In this document: positions 11,138-63,353 of the stretch, piece by piece
How the letters are laid out: every line of letters begins with the position of its first letter
Numbering within the stretch: the first letter of the stretch is position 1
From: Patellaria atrata CBS 101060
Taxonomy: Eukaryota; Ascomycota; Dothideomycetes; Patellariales; Patellariaceae
Direction of reading: 5' to 3'
Assembly (NCBI GenBank): GCA_010093705.1
Contig: MU006092.1
Location: 68,623 to 132,622 of the forward strand
Length of the DNA: 64,000 nt
The notes under the pieces: model-generated
The model's database searches: none
The model's input: the letters and a program-made list of their open reading frames with translations, nothing else
What the model was told of the DNA's origin: nothing
Made by a program: the position numbers and the translations under genes

Positions 11138-11448
11138 ACTTTGCTAACTTTGCTAACTTTGCTCACTTTGCTCACTTTGCTCACTTTGCTCACTTTGCTC
11201 ACTTTGCTCACTTTGCTCACTTTGCTCACTTTGCTCACNNNNNNNNNNNNNNNNNNNNNNNNNNNNNNNNNNNNNNNNNNNNNNNNNNNNNNNNNNNNNN
11301 NNNNNNNNNNNNNNNNNNNNNNNNNNNNNNNNNNNNNNACTTTGCTCACTTTGCTCACTTTGCTCACTTTGCTCACTTTGCTCACTTTGCTCACTTTGCT
11401 CACTTTGCTCACTTTGCTCACCTTGCTCACTTTGCTCACTTTGCTCAC
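11138..11448. repeat. 9-bp minisatellite (ACTTTGCTC)n
   Basis: Near-perfect head-to-tail copies of ACTTTGCTC flank the gap on both sides. The first copies read ACTTTGCTA and one copy near the right end reads ACCTTGCTC, so variation is concentrated at the edges and the interior is homogenised. Because the unit is nine bases, several frames are open and read as Leu-Thr-Leu, Phe-Ala-His, Ser-Lys-Val or Glu-Gln-Ser repeats; I do not treat any as a gene. The true length is unknown. Confidence 0.95.
11239..11338. other. Assembly gap (100 N)
   Basis: Exactly 100 Ns lie inside the minisatellite. This is the conventional size for a gap of unknown length, so the array is probably longer than shown. 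Confidence 0.98.
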
Positions 11449-32833: not shown

Positions 32834-33914
32834 ATGCATCGTTTCCAACGAGGCCCAGGATATTCTGGTCCCTCGAAAGCTTCACCTTCCACTGTGTGTC
32901 AAAAATGCTTGAAACGAGATATGTCATTCCTGGACCATAAACATGATATGCAAACTGACCTCAATTTTACGACACTACAGTTATGAATGTAAGGCTACAA
33001 TCCAGGATCGGCCGTATGTGTCGCGACCCTCGCGCAGTCAGCAGCTTGCGAATCCCAAGCTAGTACCCCAGCTGAACAGCGATATTCCCAACGAATTATT
33101 ACGAAAGTAAGATTTCCTGCTCGAGTAAAACAATTCTCCCTCTCACATCTTTCGTAGGAATGGTATTGCAGACGAAGAACTGGCCAAGATAGCGGAGGAA
33201 CGTGGCCGAAAGCGTAGTCGGGAAGACGAAGATGCATCTCCTCCACCCCAACGGAAACGCTCGAGATCTGCCTCATCATACTCTTCCTCGTCCGTGTCGA
33301 CAATTTCCACCAATCATTCTAGATCGCTATCTCGGGATATTGAGGACACTTACATGACCTCGCAAAGGACCGATTTCTTACCGGCAAAACCACAGAATGG
33401 CTATGGCAAACGTAGGCGATCTAGGTCATCATCTGTGGACTCATATACCTCGTACAATTCACGTGACGAGAAACGTGAAAAAGATTCAGACAGGAATACC
33501 AGAAGAAGGATGAGCTCATATAGCCCCGGGGCACGAGGTCGCCGAAGAAGTAGGTCTTTGACATCCAATGTACGACACAGGGTCCACTACAGAAGTCGAA
33601 GCCCGTATAGAGCTACTACCCGCCACAACGACGCTCCACGGGGTATAGGCAAACGTGTATCATCCCCAAAACGCAGAGACGGTCGACCCAGATCACGCAT
33701 GCGGTTTCGCTCCGGTTCTAGAAGTCCTTATAGGCCTAGAGGAAGTTCGAGATCAACGACTCCGGTACACCGATCTAAAGATACAAATCAGGACCGGAGT
33801 ATAGCCCCTAACATTCATCAGCGGCAAAACCCCTCTGCAAAACCGAAGGAGAGAAGTTTGAGTCCCTTCAGCAAACGCTTGGCTCTGACCCAAGCGATGA
33901 ACATGGAAAGATAA
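32834..33914 (+). CDS. Zinc-knuckle, RS-rich protein (ZCCHC10-like) with a probable AT-AC intron
   Basis: Model join(32834..32918,32971..33106,33158..33914), 325 aa. Likely a nuclear RNA-processing protein. The N-terminus holds one CCHC zinc knuckle with spacing CX2CX4HX4C (CQKCLKRGHYSYEC), followed by DRPYVSRPSRSQQLANPKL as in ZCCHC10-type proteins. The rest is rich in Arg-Ser dipeptides (SRSPYRATTR, RFRSGSRSPYRPRGSSRSTT), typical of splicing-associated factors. The first intron must run from AT at 32919 to AC at 32970 to give the exact knuckle; the sequence has an ATATGT donor, a CTGAC branch-like site and a TTTTAC end. A GT-AG alternative (32923..32980) also keeps frame but deletes the zinc-binding His. 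The second intron is ordinary. It is convergent with cwf18. Confidence 0.88.
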
Positions 33915-34392: not shown

Positions 34393-35037
34393 TCATGAAT
34401 TCTCTAAATTGAATTCCCGTTCCAGCTCCCGCTCCCTCCTCTCATCTTCCTCTTCCTCGCGTTCCCGCACATGCATGGCCTCAACCAAATCTATCCCTGC
34501 CATTCCCGGTGCCTCTTCTTCTTCTCCACTTGCGCCGTCTGTCTTTTTCTCCCTCGCAGCGTTTTGCGCAGCTTCCACCCTCTCCCTCACCATTCTGGCA
34601 ATAGCATTGTCAGTCCTCACATTCAGAACCTCTAGTTTCTTGTTGAGGTCCCTCTTCAAATCCCAATTAGGCTTTTTGGGCTGTAACTTGAACAGATCTA
34701 ACGGTGCATTCCCTTTCTCTTCTTTCTCAGCCTCAGCTTTCGTCTGTGCCGCTATAGCAGCAGAGCGCTCCTCGAGTGTTTCCTGACCAGCTGACGGCGC
34801 GTTCTCAAAACCTAGTTTCGGACCACGGGTCGCTATATCATAATTTCGGCCGGAAAGGTAGGTCGACGTCACATCTGGAGAAGGGGATTTTGCGGGTTGA
34901 GCTTCTGCATTAGCAGTGTCTCTATCGGCTCCGGCGTCTTGCGAGCTGTCTGGTTGTTTCCGTTTCAATGATTTGAGCTTTGCGAGGCGGGCTTTTCGCT
35001 CTTGAGCGGCAGCATCAAGCGAGGCGTGAGAATTCAT
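34393..35037 (-). CDS. Pre-mRNA-splicing factor cwf18 (CCDC12 family)
   Basis: Single exon, 214 aa. A small coiled-coil component of the Prp19/Cdc5-associated active spliceosome. Family features are the basic N-terminal helix (AAQERKARLAKLKSLKRKQ), the motif SGRNYDIATRGPKLGFENAP, the DLFKLQPKKPNWDLKRDLNK segment (the most conserved block of CCDC12/cwf18) and LEVLNVRTDNAIARMVRERV. The C-terminus is strongly acidic and basic in alternation. The frame is open further upstream to 35121, but ATG 35037 gives the family-like N-terminus. It lies 203 bp head to head with the PPR gene and tail to tail with the zinc-knuckle/RS gene. Confidence 0.88.
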   Translation of the reverse strand: MNSHASLDAAAQERKARLAKLKSLKRKQPDSSQDAGADRDTANAEAQPAKSPSPDVTSTYLSGRNYDIATRGPKLGFENAPSAGQETLEERSAAIAAQTKAEAEKEEKGNAPLDLFKLQPKKPNWDLKRDLNKKLEVLNVRTDNAIARMVRERVEAAQNAAREKKTDGASGEEEEAPGMAGIDLVEAMHVREREEEEDERRERELEREFNLENS

Positions 35038-35240
35038 CCTGACGGGAGGTGGTGATGTCTTAACCTTTTTTGAATTGCTACCTTTCGGTTGGGATGTGGT
35101 TGAAGATATGAGCGAGCGCACAGACCATCTACATTCTGTTCGGGGAAGCTCCGCATGGCGCGTCTATCATAAAATTCACCTCCATTCACACCGCCCACGC
35201 TTATGTCTCTCACCATGGCCCGATGAATATTTGACTTTCC

Positions 35241-39398: not shown

Positions 39399-42284
39399 CT
39401 ATGCATGACCCTCCTGACGCCCCTCCCCCATCCCCTCAACTTCCCTCGCAATCTCCTCATACCAACTCCCATGTCCCATCCTATCCACCTCACTCACCCG
39501 TCCCAACTCCTCTACAATCCCCCCAACTCTCTCCACAAACTCCGCCAGCCCCGTCGCCGCAAGGCCCTCAATCGCCGTACTCGCCGCCCTGACCCTTTCG
39601 CCCGAACTACTCGCCGCAACGCGGGTCAAGATGTGTTCTTTGAGTCTGCCAAAGACAACTTTCATGACGGGGTCGAGAAGTCTGCCGGTAGAGGCTTGGG
39701 AAAGGAAGCGGGTGATTGTGGCGAGGAGTTGGGACCGGGAGGAGGCAGGCATGGGATGCGAGGACTCGATTATTGAGAGTAGTTTGGTGGCCATGGGGTT
39801 GGTATCGATTGACTCAGTGGTGTCGGGTCCGATGTAGCCGTCCTTGAGCGCGTCCCACATCCGAATCGCATCGGCCTTCCACTGGCTGCGGACGTCCCGC
39901 TTAAGGAGGTTCTTAGCGGTCAATAAAATGGACCCGACGGTAGCGATTCGAAGCGTCGTGGTGCGAATGCGAGAGAGGCGGGCCTTGTCGAGGTCGAGTG
40001 TTTCTGGAACGTCTTGGTCCTGGAGAGGTATAGTTGCTATCGCAAGGTCGACGAGGCCATAGGCATAGATCCGCTGAGGGGTGGGACGGCGGGGAGGTTC
40101 CTGGCGGGAAGCTTCGGTAACAACATTCATATATGCCCCTTTATACCAGTGCTTAGTCTTCTGCAGCGTTATTGTTCCGCTCTCGAGATCTTGGGCGAAC
40201 ATGCGCTGTTCGTAACCTCCCGCCTCGCGTATAAGGGTCGGAGCGGCGTTCATCAAAAGGAAGTTGGAATAGTCAAGGGACAGAAGATCGATGAAATGAA
40301 GAACTTTGAAGAGTTTCTCAATCATCAGGTCCAGGTCGCCTGATTCCTCTAGCTCCTGGATTAAAGCCTTAACCTGCACATCGCGGAATGGAGCACACAG
40401 CTTGGGTAGGATAGAAGCCATGAACTGGAAGAATTTCTCATATGAGAAAACCCCTCGAACGCATTGTTGTTGAATCCCTTGGGGATCCAGCACCTCGCTT
40501 ATAAGGGTATATGTGGGATTACCTTCTCTAAGCAACCGAAGAAGCTTTGCGCGGATATTCTCCGCCATTGCGACTGTCCATTGGTTGTCTTCTCCACGTC
40601 GAAAACCTTCACGCATGCTGTCGCAAACACTCTGGTTGAACGCATCTCGGATATCTGAATGCGGGCCAACGTCGATCCGATACTCCTTGTCGATGGATAA
40701 CTCGTGTACAAGTACACGGTTGGAGGGCACTGGCGAAAAGATTTTCATCAGTACATCGGATGCGTCGGCATCACGTCCACTACTGCCCTTTGGGAGCTTG
40801 GGTCCGTCAGTCGAGGTGATACTTCCCTCCGGATTTGATGCAGCGGTATCAGTCATTAGGGCATCAGCAAGCCTTGGACGTGTCTCGGCTACAGGTCGTC
40901 TCCTGACTTGTGCGCGCCTGCTTGCTTTGATGGCTCTCTGAATCATAGCATTTGCTCGTTCCAGTCCAGCCAATTTCTTGATTTTGCTGTATAGAATAAC
41001 CTGGTTATCACGTATCCCCTCTTTATAATCACTAGCGACCTCTCCGTCCGTATTATTTTTGACACTCTGCCATATGGCGTCAAGATTGACGAATGAAGCG
41101 ACCATGGTCTCAATCAAAGTAGATGCGTCCTGCGCTTTCCAGTCCGAAAAGGCGCTAACGAACGCAGCGTGCGCCAATGATACGTTTTCCAATTGCGTCG
41201 GCGACGCTACGTAACGATTTGATGGCGAAAGAGTAGATAGGAGTGACTCGAATGAGATAATGAGATCCTTAGCCTTATTTATCAAATCTTGCTCTTGATC
41301 CCCGTTTTTACTACTCAGCACCTCTTGCGGATGGCCAAGGATAAGGTACGCGCTGAGAAACGTTCGGGTACTTGTGCTCTCTGCGACTGGGTTATTTTCC
41401 GGCTGCAATAAGTCTAGAAGTGACAGGAGTTTTGCGCTAGTATCTAGCACAGTCTGGTCAGAAAGCAATGCAGTCATTTCTTCGAACTCTGCTTCATGGA
41501 CATAGTCAATGGACAGATCGAGAGCTTGGTATCTTCCGATGATATGTTTCCTGCGTTGCATTCTCCAGATCGCCTGGATCCTCCTAGCAGCAGTATCTTG
41601 GTCCAGTGAACGTTTCTTGATCTCTACCGGTTTTTTGCTCTCCAGAGAAGGTGAGCTGGACGTTCTGGGGCGCCTAAGGTTCTTCTGATATTGTAACCTT
41701 CTCCTTTCCGCCTCTGCGTGTTTTTCTTCTATCTCCATTCGATATCTCTTCTCTTCCGCAGCTTTCCGCTCCTTCATATCCTCAGCAACTTTCTTTGCGC
41801 GCCTGACCTCCTCCGCACAAGCAGCAGCAACCTGAGCCAATATCTTTTCCCGCGCTTGTTTAGCAGCCAGTGCCCTCTCTTCGCTATTTGTCGTTCGCGG
41901 TGCAGCTTTTACGAGCGCTGCTCGAAGTCTAACCTGCTCCGCATGTGCTGCCCTCTCCGCGAGACGGGCTTTGCGAGTTTCGAGGATTGCAACGCGGCGC
42001 AAGTGCTGAGCGACATGATTGCTCTGGCAACCGCTGCGAAATGAGCGACCTGATGTATGTGAATGAGTAGAAGAGAGAGAGTTCCGCCGCGAAGATGCAG
42101 CGGACGACTTGCGCCTTGTATTTGAAGGGCGATAGAACCGTGCAGCTATCCTTGCCGGTGGTGCATAAACTTGACCATTATCGTCTGATAGATTCATAAG
42201 CTCTGTTTCTTCTGGAATGTCGTCGTTGATCGCGGTGATATTGTTTAGATCTACATCGGGGGACGTAGGCATGTCGGAGTGCAT
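39399..42284 (-). CDS. TCP11/SOK1-family protein
   Basis: Single exon, 961 aa. The T-complex 11 family includes yeast Sok1, a suppressor linked to cAMP-dependent protein kinase signalling, so a role in PKA signalling is possible. An N-terminal region of charged coiled coil (ARLAERAAHAEQVRLRAALV and KKVAEDMKERKAAEEKRYRM) is followed by a short IQ-like helix (AARRIQAIWRMQRRKHII) and then a long all-helical TCP11 domain from about residue 480 (VLVHELSIDKEYRIDV, FQFMASILPKLCAPFRDVQV, LIQELEESGDLDLMIEKLFK, VLHFIDLLSLDYSNFLLMNA). The in-frame codon at 42287 is GTG, so ATG 42284 is used. No introns are apparent. Length is normal for filamentous ascomycetes. Confidence 0.92.
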   Translation of the reverse strand: MHSDMPTSPDVDLNNITAINDDIPEETELMNLSDDNGQVYAPPARIAARFYRPSNTRRKSSAASSRRNSLSSTHSHTSGRSFRSGCQSNHVAQHLRRVAILETRKARLAERAAHAEQVRLRAALVKAAPRTTNSEERALAAKQAREKILAQVAAACAEEVRRAKKVAEDMKERKAAEEKRYRMEIEEKHAEAERRRLQYQKNLRRPRTSSSPSLESKKPVEIKKRSLDQDTAARRIQAIWRMQRRKHIIGRYQALDLSIDYVHEAEFEEMTALLSDQTVLDTSAKLLSLLDLLQPENNPVAESTSTRTFLSAYLILGHPQEVLSSKNGDQEQDLINKAKDLIISFESLLSTLSPSNRYVASPTQLENVSLAHAAFVSAFSDWKAQDASTLIETMVASFVNLDAIWQSVKNNTDGEVASDYKEGIRDNQVILYSKIKKLAGLERANAMIQRAIKASRRAQVRRRPVAETRPRLADALMTDTAASNPEGSITSTDGPKLPKGSSGRDADASDVLMKIFSPVPSNRVLVHELSIDKEYRIDVGPHSDIRDAFNQSVCDSMREGFRRGEDNQWTVAMAENIRAKLLRLLREGNPTYTLISEVLDPQGIQQQCVRGVFSYEKFFQFMASILPKLCAPFRDVQVKALIQELEESGDLDLMIEKLFKVLHFIDLLSLDYSNFLLMNAAPTLIREAGGYEQRMFAQDLESGTITLQKTKHWYKGAYMNVVTEASRQEPPRRPTPQRIYAYGLVDLAIATIPLQDQDVPETLDLDKARLSRIRTTTLRIATVGSILLTAKNLLKRDVRSQWKADAIRMWDALKDGYIGPDTTESIDTNPMATKLLSIIESSHPMPASSRSQLLATITRFLSQASTGRLLDPVMKVVFGRLKEHILTRVAASSSGERVRAASTAIEGLAATGLAEFVERVGGIVEELGRVSEVDRMGHGSWYEEIAREVEGMGEGRQEGHA

Positions 42285-43783
42285 CACGGAGTATATGGAG
42301 TCGCTGAAGTTGAGAAGGGTCTTTGGACTACGTGGTATGACTACGGAGTAAATGTACAGGTTGTTAGAGTAGATGCACGGGCGCTGACAGAAAGATGGTG
42401 CGACGAGGCCAGGTGTTCGGTGGAAGTCAGACGAGTATGCAAACAGACGGAGATTGTTGGTAGCGAAAGCGGGCTCCGACAGTGATGGATGCGGATAATA
42501 GAATGGTTAACTGGACTTTTAAAAGATGGAATGCAGATCAAGTCAACAAAGGAAAGATGGAGAAAAATAGTTACATGAAGAGAAGAAGAGGAGGGAGTAA
42601 TGGTAAGGTATGAAGAAAAGAAATGTAAGGTGGTAACTGCCAGGCTTCAGAGGTTGAAGAAGCAGCAGCTCCAAATGGATGACGAAGAAGGTGGAAGTGG
42701 ATGGAGGAGGCTGGACTTTTGCTCTGCTGCTGACCATGCCGCGGATCATCCTCGAAGCCAAGAGAACATAGAGTACTACCTTTTCCATCATACCAGTAAG
42801 GTACACTTGTAACCACGTCAAGAAGAGGCGCCGGAAAGTATTTTGTACTGCACAGTATAATTCTACCGTACCCGTGGCCTAAAACCTCAATATTGCGTCA
42901 AGCGTCCAGTGTCAGTTCTGACGGGAAATGTGACGGGAGCCCAGGGTATTGTGCGTTTTGTAACGTACTGTACGATATCTTACTCCGTACTGTACAATAT
43001 ACCATTGTTAGCGCGATATTCTGGGCCGCGGATATATCTCCGATTTTTAATAGTCTAGAGGAGATAACGGACGACATAATGACATATCCAGTTCCATTAG
43101 AACTACCGTAAGGTATAAGTGTGATCCTACTGTAAATAGAAAGGGTAAGGTACCGCACCATACTGTAATGTGCATAGTACTCGACGTATAAGGTAGGTTA
43201 GGTACCTTAAAAAGAGGGTGAACTTGTATAAAACACAAACCTCTGAAATAGCTCTAAAAGTTTTTAAAATATGGTCTGACAAGAGGATAAGTTTAGAGGT
43301 GGTTTAATTCAATTATTGACGGGAAGTTGTCCAATCGATATGAATTTAAAATGCTTACCTAGATTGCAGCTGTGTAAAATTTACAATCGGTAAATAAAAA
43401 CGGGCCGTTCCTTCTCGGTCATGACTCCCGAAAGCGTGGAAGGTCCATCCCATCTCATCCCACCCCGACTGTTCCTGCTTCTTAATGAGAATTACCTTTA
43501 CCTTACGGTATCAACAAGCCTACCTTAACCTGGAATGCGCTTTCCCTCTTCGCTCTTTCCCATTCGCGCCTTCTCGCTCTCTACGTTATATGCATTCGCT
43601 CTTACTTCACTTGCTCAATACCCGACAACTGTCTCCTGTCTCCATATTCGTACCAAAGTACAACCAGGATGCTATGATGCAATGATCACATTTCACCTTG
43701 ACCTTTGAACCCCCACAATATGAGCCGCTTCTTTAACACGCGACTCTCCGTCACTTTTCCTTCTACTACTATTCATTAGAAAT
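42285..43783. other. Divergent intergenic region of 1.5 kb
   Basis: Promoters of the TCP11-like gene and the NirA-like regulator. It is rich in GTACTGTAC and TACCTTA/TAAGGTA words (for example 42965-42973, 42987-42995, 43148-43207) and has A+T-rich runs near 43220-43400. No coding sequence was recognised. Confidence 0.45.
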
Positions 43784-59076: not shown

Positions 59077-62000
59077 ATGTTTTCTCCAGATGCAACTATA
59101 CACAGCGGCCACACGAACTCGCTCCGCAACCCGCGACGGCGCCAGCGCAACGACTCTGAAGGCGTTCGCCATCCTCGAAAGCGAAGCAAAATCTCTAGCG
59201 AGACATTCTCCCCATCTCCTGATAAAATCCCCAATGGAAATGGGTTCCTAGGTGTTAATGGTCATGCGCGGAACGAAAATCGAGCTGAAAGCGTCTCCCT
59301 TCGAGAAGTCCCTGTGCGAGAAAAGAAACTCAATGGCGTGGGGAAGAGGGCCACGAAAGGAGACGGGAGCATTGTTCTCGTAGGATAAGCCAAACGATTG
59401 CCATCTCGCGTGGGTATAGCTGACAGAAATCATCCTAGACACAGAATCCACACTATAGCGTTAGACAGCTACCGTCGATCCCCGATCAACTGGAAGCGGA
59501 GTCAAGTATGCTATTCCAATCAACCATATACTTTGAAGGTCTCACTAGCTGATACACGGATGTAGCTCCTTATCGTGGATCATCTCTTCCATTTTCAAAT
59601 TTGGCATTAGCTCTCACATTTAACAAAGCTTTTATTTGGGATTATACGCTCCCAACAACATCGCCTACTACTCGGACTGTGGACTTGCCGTACTCGACAA
59701 GACTCACCGAACCACTTCCATTAGGGTCTTTGGTTACAAGTGGCCCTTCGAGAGAGGTAGGGCTCGTAGTAGTCTTTCCTAGTACAGGACATATCAAGTT
59801 TTGGGAGGATGTCGACAATGTTGCATCTCTCAATCTCTTGAAGAACCATCGCGGGGGCCTTGATAGCAAGGTTCACCTTCCAGACAAAGCAACAATTACC
59901 GAAATAATCGACGCAGGTCATGCCGGCTTCATTCTCCTCCTCAGCAATGGTCAGCTGGCGCAACTTATGGTCCGAGACTCTCAAGGACGGTCAAATATCA
60001 ATGTTGACTTCCTTCCGTTCGACGGAACGAGCGCAAATAATGGTCTGTTCTCCATTTCCGGTTTTGGAAAAATATTCCGTGTTCATAAGTGCAAACATGA
60101 TATTGCTGCTGCTAAAGTTCGACCATCGACAACAAAGGGTCAGATGGAGGTTGTGGCGACAAGTTCCTCTGGTTTGTTTAAGATTTGGAATATCAACTGG
60201 TCCGGTCAGCACGCACTTGACTTCGAGGTGGATGCTCATGAGGAAATCGCTGCAGCCGTCTACTCCGATCTCGACCACGATTCAAGTCATAACTCAACTA
60301 TAAAGGTGATTGACTTTGCGTTTCTACCGGAACCTTTTGGGACGATAAGCGATGTTGCGAGACAAAAATCAAAACGGACCATTCAGACCTTGGCCTTAGT
60401 GTCTGTTGCTAATACTTCTAGTTTGCGCTACTCATTAGTCGAAGTTGACCTTCATTCTGGAGGTTCAGACATACGCCGTGCCTTTCCCCTTGATTCTTAC
60501 CGAAGTTCTATCACAAACCACGACTGCAAAGTACCAAAGTTGCTGCTCCCGCACCCGGGGCATACGGTTACCATAGTATTCGAGGATGCTGTTGTGCTAG
60601 CTTCGCTGCAGATTAAAGAGTCGAGTCCGGAGAGTCAACTGTTAGCCGACTCTGGAGAACTCCAATCGCCGTATCAAGATTGTTTCTACCTCAATATCAA
60701 AGACGGGTTTTCGCTTCAGGGACACGAGATCGAAGATCGGACTGGAAAGGATACTCTGTCTCAATGTATATTATTCTCATACCCAGCTGGAATAGTACGA
60801 ATCACTACCCTAGATCCTGAAAAATTTGATAACGGCACGGATACCGCTCGCGTTACCGCTAAAAGCAAGATAGAGCAGGTTGTATTCTTTAGTGGTGTAC
60901 CCGGCCAAATCATCGACTTCTCCCGTAAGCCGGAATTGCAATTCTCCAATGACGAGGTTGAGTTGGCGGCTCTTCATGTCAGTAAAGATATCCTGAGATC
61001 GAATTCCGAAACCTTCCAGGCTATGGCCTTCAATATGGATCGACAACTCTCGATGCGTGCGCAATCACTGCATCTTTTGGCTGTGTATATTTCAGCAAAC
61101 TATCCATCGATATCGCATTCTTGTAAGTGGAAACTTCTCCGGGATGCTGAAAAACTAGCCAGTGTAAGAAAGGTTTGGAAATATCATGACCGAAACCTAC
61201 AGAACGAAACACCTCAACAGCGGCTACTTCTCCCAGAATGGCTCGAAATAGTTCATGGTCGTCATAAGACGGAGGCCCGCGTGGAAATAGGTGAGCTTGA
61301 CTTGGTACGCCAATGGTTCACGAGGGATGTATCTCGCTGGGAATCACTGGTACCATCTGCGTATGCTTATCTACAGGTCAACTGCAAGGGGGGCGGCTTT
61401 GCTCTGGCTGACCTCCTACATCAAGCTTTGGAAACCGTTGAGATTGTATACGGCTCACTTCACGCAGCTTTGGAATTCAGAGAGCTGCATGCGGAAAATT
61501 ACGGTCTGATCGGCGAGGATTTTGAAAACGGCATTCTCCGAAGTAACTACGAAGGGCTCCCAGAGTTTTGGACATCTTCACACAATCTCGTTAACACAAC
61601 AAGAACATTGGTGAAATTGGTTTCACAACAAATTGGCAGACCCGACGATGATATAGACGACACATTGAATGCTGAAGTAGCTCAGTCACTCCCTAAACTC
61701 GCTAGACTCTGTTGCGTACTCAACATTGAGCGGTATACATGGTATTTACACCAGGATGACGCGGAAAAACGAGTCATTGGGGAGAGAATCAAGAGAGAAT
61801 TTGATACGGTTGTCCAGCATGAATTACTCACTGCCCTTAATTTAGCGGATCAACAAGAACAAGGGATCGAAATTGCCGAATGGCTTCGCAACATGACCGA
61901 ACTCGTCAATCTCATCTCCACACAGTTCAATATGTTGTTTGATACAGTGAGAGACTTTGGAGACAGAGAAGGCCAATACAAATCTATGGCTGATAACCAA

Positions 62001-63353
62001 CTTGATATTGCCAAAGAGCGCCTCCAACATTTCTTCAACAAATATGGCAACGATTTTGCGACCCCATACTTTCTAAGATACCTCGAAACAAAACAACCGG
62101 CTTTGATTTTCAACCCTAGTATGTCTAATTCGCAATATCGCAAAGAATTCTTACAAGCGGACCCCAGCCGCGCCAAATTGAGATGGATCAATGAGGTGAT
62201 AGTCGAAAAGAACCCTCACGAAGCTGCGAATGCTCTTCTGACCGTAGCCGAGACACAAGAGACAAACATTTGGTGTAAGAAGGTTGAGTTGTCGATTGCG
62301 AAGCTTTCCCTGCTTGCAGCCGACAAAATCGCCGCTCTCCAGAGAAACTCCACCGAACTCAAGCTCACTACACTTCAAAACAAGCTATACAATCATATTA
62401 GCCTTACTGTACTAGAATCCCTAGATCAAGACTCGGCCCTAGATCTTGTTATGGGTACGTACGCAGCTAAGCGTGTACATCGACGTCCCGGTGTTAGGCA
62501 AGTCATCCGCCTCGGCTTCGAGCTTCTGATCAATCAACGTGTGCTCGACGCGGACATGCTTATTGATATCTTGACTCTAATGGACCACGAAAAGAGTCAG
62601 TCGAGCGCAGACGATATCAGTGGACAGCAATTTTATCTCGCTCTGGATGTGCTTGCAACATCTAAGTCTAGCAAGAGTCCGTTCATATACGAGTCCCTTC
62701 AGAAACTCATTTGGAAGAGATGTTACTTTATGGATGACTGGAACACGATCAATAAGACAGAAGGAAAGTCGGATGAGCATGTTGGCCGGGTGTTGCAGAA
62801 AACAGTACTCTTCAGGACACTGAAAGCATGCGCAAAGGCCAGTAAGTTGCGTCCTCTCACTTTCGCTTCACGCCGTAATAGCTCGTTGTAATACGGTCTG
62901 CTAACTGCAATACTAGCTCTACTAAAGGGCGCACCTCATGTGATCCCGATTCCTCCATCGGAATGTGTATCTGCGGGGTGTTCTCCTCAAGAGCTCATCC
63001 ATCGTTTCCCTTCGGAGGATATGCATCATCACGTCATGTCGGATAATGCCAAAGATGGCGAACAACTAACTAAGTACATAGAGCATGCCCGTTTAGATGA
63101 GTGGGTTAAAGCGTGTGATGACTTGGCTATTCAAATAGTGAATAAGGAAGGGGATGATGAGGCAGAAGAGAAGAGACTAGAGCAGGAGGGTGTGCTGGGA
63201 TGGAAAGAAAAGCCTTCGACTGACTGGGTGTTGGAAGAAGAAGACGACGAGAGAGTGACAGGGGCTCGAAGTGCTGCCACAAGCACATTTAATGGAGATG
63301 ATGAGGCTGAAGGAAGCGGGGAGCAGAGCGATACTGAGATGGGAGGTATGTAG
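59077..63353 (+). CDS. NUP133: Nucleoporin NUP133
   Basis: Model join(59077..59379,59439..59505,59566..62841,62917..63353), 1360 aa. A scaffold subunit of the Y-shaped (Nup84/Nup107-160) complex of the nuclear pore. The N-terminus is basic and disordered (RNPRRRQRNDSEGVRHPRKR). A beta-propeller follows (FNKAFIWDYTLPTTSPTTR, GLVVVFPSTGHIKFWEDVDN, EVVATSSSGLFKIWNINWSG). From about residue 560 the protein is an alpha-helical stack ending in the conserved Nup133/Nup155-type region (GNDFATPYFLRYLETKQPAL, KRVHRRPGVRQVIRLGFELL, YESLQKLIWKRCYFMDDWNT). The C-terminus is acidic. Introns of 59-75 bases all keep phase, and the short second exon (67 bases) is required to link the tail to the propeller. 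Length fits filamentous ascomycete Nup133. Confidence 0.95.

Follow-up and report, generated by a model that had tools for sequence, protein, structure and literature searches.

A probable U2-type AT-AC intron in the zinc-knuckle coding region of a zf-CCHC_3 gene of Patellaria atrata CBS 101060

The stretch of P. atrata DNA analysed in this work (64,000 nucleotides, hereafter the window) harbors a protein-coding gene (32834..33914, + strand) whose frame, if nothing is excised, is broken at a zinc knuckle. This raises the question of which intron, with which ends and for which spliceosome, might interrupt the knuckle. According to the initial annotation, the segment 32919..32970, starting with AT and ending with AC, is an intron whose removal restores it. 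Excision and translation confirmed these coordinates, both end dinucleotides, the resulting protein, and the kept frame: the removal of the segment yields CQKCLKRGHYSYEC, and the frame continues through a GT-AG intron (33107..33157) up to a TAA stop codon. The gene, open from its ATG to the stop through both excisions, would consist of three exons (32834..32918, 32971..33106, and 33158..33914, + strand); its product begins with MHRFQRGPGYSGPSKASPSTVCQKC and contains, besides the zinc knuckle, an RS-rich stretch at its end. The first 99 residues of the AT-AC product match the Pfam family PF13917 (zf-CCHC_3) with 70.5 bits (E 1.1e-19) over positions 2-41 of the 41 of the model; the gathering cut-off is 27 bits, and the protein can be assigned to this family. 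The zinc ligands (CX2CX4HX4C) are complete after the AT-AC excision and lost after that of an overlapping GT-AG segment (32923..32980). Human ZCCHC10 is a zf-CCHC_3 member, and the protein is referred to as ZCCHC10-type.

No orthologue of this protein was disclosed in viral contigs (33 pattern matches, none of which was confirmed). The sole locus retrieved from bacterial and archaeal contigs was rejected as a zinc-knuckle homologue: the match covers 25 query residues, and the bacterial protein, which has a CX3CX2C motif and looks radical-SAM-like, ends directly behind the matched part. A phmmer search with the first 99 residues revealed no close relative in the Protein Data Bank, the six matches at E up to 10 (best 0.22) being five Gag or nucleocapsid chains and one putative hydrolase. 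Other proteins encoded by the window were also compared with the Protein Data Bank: the Nup133-like nucleoporin (59553..62888, + strand; a single long open frame recognized by Pfam) matched two chains, weakly (best E 2e-13), and is uninformative as to the fungal group, and Mpp10 matched chain 5oql_c with 544.8 bits versus 217.9 for 5wlc_NA, which are of Chaetomium and budding yeast, respectively. The Mpp10 scores would thus point to a filamentous ascomycete.

All the excisions having a donor at 32900..32959, an end up to 32999, and a length of at least 30 nt, and keeping a single open frame, were enumerated. A CX2CX4HX4C knuckle is produced by 14 of the 808 frame-keeping excisions, and all 14 are 52 nt long, being slides of one cut (donors from 32908 to 32921). 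None of them has GT-AG or GC-AG ends, each shares at most two of the four end bases with GT-AG, and AT-AC ends together with Gly-His are found in 32919..32970 only; the cut 32908..32959, as an example, has CT-AC ends and yields SILR instead of LKRG. In four further 52-nt cuts, CLKR and the knuckle are both retained and Gly gives way to another residue: Glu with TA-CG ends, Asp with AT-GA ends, and Arg with either GA-TA or AG-TT ends. The zf-CCHC_3 scores of these neighbouring slides are 68.9 bits for Asp, 68.4 for Glu, and 64.6 for Arg, versus 70.5 for Gly; the GT-AG excision reaches 55.5 bits and retention 16.2. The glycine before the histidine would rest on the splice signals and on 1.6 bits over Asp, a small score difference, and the GHYS block as a whole would rest on 15 bits above GT-AG splicing. 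The ends had been described as uniquely AT and AC. This holds for the DNA junction once the cut has been chosen, where both flanking base pairs differ (G at 32918 versus C at 32970, and A at 32919 versus G at 32971) and the junction, as had been claimed, does not slide; it does not hold from the protein alone, which the four other cuts also fit.

The putative intron (phase 1, + strand) reads ATATGTCATTCCTGGACCATAAACATGATATGCAAACTGACCTCAATTTTAC, and the codon formed at the join (G|GA) specifies Gly. Its 5' splice site, ATATGT (32919..32924), corresponds to GTATGT with the first G changed to A, and its 3' splice site, TTTTAC (32965..32970), to TTTTAG with the last G changed to C. The branch-site motif CTGAC spans 32955..32959, and its branch A, position 32958, precedes the last base of the intron by 12 nt; counting that last base as 1, the motif lies 12-16 bases before the end rather than the 13-17 originally indicated. 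No AG occurs across 32919-32978, and therefore no AG acceptor is available upstream of the HYS codons.

For comparison, GT-AG introns of the window were harvested on the basis of reading frame, coding score, and sequence motifs, 11 of 12 being kept; position +3 had to be A or G, CTRAY and YAG were required, and a branch-to-end distance up to 24 was permitted. A looser harvest (17 kept of 26) took in places within long open frames and was replaced. The 11 introns are 49-84 nt long (52 for 32919..32970), their branch A lies 10-18 nt from the end (12 for 32919..32970), and two of them start with GTATGT. Compared with these motif-filtered introns, 32919..32970 displays a U2-type donor context (RTATGT) and a CTRAY motif at the usual distance; since the harvest was selected on similar motifs, this agreement speaks for compatibility and is not proof, and the spread is partly built in. 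The second intron of the gene (33107..33157, + strand; donor GTAAGA) keeps the frame and is delimited by the sole GT/AG pair there, with the only GT in 33100-33124 and the only AG end in 33140-33161. It lacks the CTRAY branch motif, which is why the motif-based harvest missed it and which implies that CTGAC is not an obligatory mark of introns in this gene.

The frequency of such signals in the window was then considered. A 52-nt pattern was scanned over 127,880 starts on both strands, with four adjacent offsets each; it combined one of TATGT, TAAGT, TACGT, and TGAGT in positions 2-6 with a CTRAY close to the end and an A in the penultimate position. With AT-AC ends, it was counted four times, corresponding to 32919..32970 alone through four overlapping starts; with other ends, the counts were eight for GT-AA, four each for AT-AA, CT-AC, and AT-AT, and zero for GT-AG. 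For any one place, the factorised chance of the AT-AC pattern lies between 4e-6 and 1e-5. Leaving the length free, nine AT-AC look-alikes (donor, branch, and AC) were retrieved at eight donor places of the window, two of which, 32919..32970 and 42992..43087 (- strand), have open flanks of 30 codons. It is only the frame and the protein that separate 32919..32970 from the other AT-AC look-alikes of the window. The one at 42992..43087, located upstream of a Tcp11 gene (39402..42506), shares the same first eight bases (ATATGTCA) and may be a chance occurrence.

Because of its U2-type signals, of a length and a branch distance fitting those of the harvested introns, and of U12 motifs occurring at chance level, 32919..32970 is in all likelihood a U2-type AT-AC intron (AT-AC type II), handled by the major spliceosome and located in the knuckle-coding part of the zf-CCHC_3 gene; the proposal of such an intron within the zinc knuckle, already made in the initial annotation, finds good support in the protein family, the frame, and the splice signals. 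As for the U12 motifs, the donor consensus RTATCCTT is matched by ATATGTCA at four of eight positions, with G at +5 and T at +6; the rule given in the available part of PMC2846911 allows a T for one of the two C at +5/+6. The best match to the branch consensus TTCCTTRAY is 6/9, a value reached by 1157 of 2000 random 40-nt windows; 32919..32970 lacks both consensus sequences, as U2-type AT-AC introns do. No Rfam family was detected at gathering score in the window, which says little on the U12 machinery because snRNA genes could sit outside it. It had also been assumed that this group of fungi is without minor splicing, and the accessible sections of PMC10639083 agree, reporting no convincing minor introns in Ascomycota. 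The removal of AT-AC introns by the major spliceosome is described in the available text of PMC7072748, PMC3584512, PMC5473141, and PMC6283158. Moreover, at least 42 probable AT-AC introns are reported for Caenorhabditis elegans, which apparently lacks U11, U12, and U4atac (PMC3033335, available excerpt), and the portion of PMC2846911 at hand lists "other" (non-U12) AT-AC introns in two fungi, Rhizopus (3) and Phycomyces (31-32).

The overlapping GT-AG segment 32923..32980 (+ strand) is unlikely to be the main intron, even though it has canonical ends, keeps the frame intact, as had been stated, uses the same CTGAC branch motif, terminates with a good acceptor (CTACAG), and leaves a product whose 55.5 bits still exceed the Pfam cut-off of 27. 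Its excision gives CQKCLKRDIYEC, i.e., a protein with a degenerate CX2C...C region in which the zinc His, as anticipated, is lost; the score is 15 bits lower, and the excision also removes 32971..32980, the bases that make up the rest of the GHYS codons in the knuckle with the higher score. The donor GTCATT has a C at +3, seen in 0/11 harvested introns, an absence that says little because the harvest demanded A or G at that position. The distance from branch to end would be 22, versus 10-18 in the harvested introns (up to 24 permitted). Such a knuckle-destroying excision is probably little used.

It is likewise improbable that the two excisions take part in regulated alternative splicing, in which the AT-AC excision would lead to a zinc-binding form and the GT-AG excision or retention to an inactive one, perhaps as a feedback in a splicing-linked gene. 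The initial annotation had suggested active and inactive forms; what stands of this suggestion is the frame, kept by both excisions (by chance, one case in three), and a precedent in a plant reporter, whereas the weak-looking GTCATT donor and the branch distance of 22 argue against it. The retention of 32919..32970 would give a truncated product of 50 residues, and a weak recognition of AT-AC sites is described in the available text of PMC6283158. Competition between a U2-type AT-AC intron and a nested GT-AG intron having its acceptor 3 nt away is described for a GFP reporter in Arabidopsis, and splicing-factor mutants shift the balance (PMC5473141, accessible part); a switch is therefore conceivable. 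It is quite improbable that the RS-rich zinc-knuckle protein, as a splicing-linked one, sets its own level via a weak U2-type AT-AC intron located among its zinc ligands, with an active form from AT-AC splicing, a His-less full-length form from GT-AG splicing at the overlapping sites, and a truncated form from retention. Human ZCCHC10 is found among the FRA10AC1 interactors and its expression clusters with spliceosomal genes, its known role being given as transcription regulation (PMC10048706, as far as its available sections go). Convergent with the zinc-knuckle gene is a gene (34396..35163, - strand) for the pre-mRNA splicing factor cwf18/CCDC12 (Pfam PF08315, 149.4 bits), whose product has its best Protein Data Bank match in 9l5r_F, CCDC12 (154.1 bits). 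As a splicing link of the zinc-knuckle gene, this neighbour and the expression clustering of ZCCHC10 are suggestive only, and the two adjoining genes are possibly both splicing-linked.

A sequence or assembly error masking an ordinary GT-AG intron is very unlikely. A G at both ends would indeed make GTATGT...TTTTAG, but two independent substitutions at exactly both end bases would be required; with a single corrected end paired with the canonical site already present, the intron would be 62 nt (32919..32980) or 48 nt (32923..32970) long, and both lengths break the frame because the frame-keeping ones are 3n+1, and the remainder of the 1.08-kb gene is open. A single base error, previously proposed as sufficient to refute the AT-AC intron, would not be, since no knuckle-giving cut is one substitution away from GT-AG (0/14). 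This alternative was weighed for substitutions at the intron ends. A run of 100 undetermined bases (11239..11338), representing an assembly gap, is located far from the AT-AC intron. Lastly, it is extremely unlikely that 32919..32970 is a U12-type intron of the minor spliceosome, which would account for the AT-AC ends and the initial ATAT, but the donor goes on with GTCA instead of CCTT, the branch motif does not exceed chance, and the available text of PMC10639083 reports no convincing minor introns for Ascomycota.

Coming back to the U2-type AT-AC intron, a possible mechanism can be outlined. The major spliceosome would remove 32919..32970 in the cell, U1 and U6 reading ATATGT as GTATGT and U2 reading CTGAC. 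At the second splicing step, the first and the last intron bases are in a G-G contact, for which the first A and the last C of this intron might stand in. The ancestor was probably an intron with GT-AG ends occupying this phase-1 position, which would have undergone paired end changes, G to A at +1 and G to C at -1.

Of the annotated splice-site pairs of fungi, 2,302,340 of which were examined, AT-AC accounts for a mean of 0.019% (PMC7072748, available part), so that the prior for an AT-AC intron is low; in human fungal pathogens, AT-AC makes up 0.09-5.19% of the RNA-seq junctions in use, a share that may include mapping noise (PMC6176087, accessible text). As the published shares differ widely, 32919..32970 need not be exceptional. 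It is not described in the available text of the open-licence papers searched, and it would very probably be an additional instance of U2-type AT-AC introns, a rare kind that is already known. Since protein family, reading frame, and splice signals jointly fix this case, it may offer a clean natural test of the contact between the first and last bases in the major spliceosome, in a phylum for which PMC10639083, in its available sections, reports no convincing minor introns. Gene finders admitting only GT-AG introns would mis-call the knuckle of this gene.

The comparison with known systems can be summarized as follows. The knuckle and the block following it are shared with the PF13917 zf-CCHC_3 proteins, from which the window protein differs in its RS-rich C-terminal part. 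The end dinucleotides are those of U12-type AT-AC introns; however, the donor is ATATGTCA instead of ATATCCTT, and no TTCCTTRAY branch rises above chance. The putative intron resembles ordinary GT-AG introns of filamentous ascomycetes (GTATGT...CTRAY...YAG), represented by the 11 from the window, in length, donor positions +2 to +6, branch motif, and branch distance, and departs from them at the first and last bases. U2-type AT-AC introns are exemplified by those of voltage-gated sodium channel genes; compared with the known ones, the present case is fungal, 52 nt long, and located in a knuckle-coding exon. With the U2-type AT-AC intron of the Arabidopsis GFP reporter, as presented in the available text of PMC5473141, it has in common AT-AC ends without U12 donor or branch and a competing GT-AG choice nearby, but the GT-AG intron is nested in the reporter, whereas here the GT-AG alternative overlaps the AT-AC intron and has a later acceptor.
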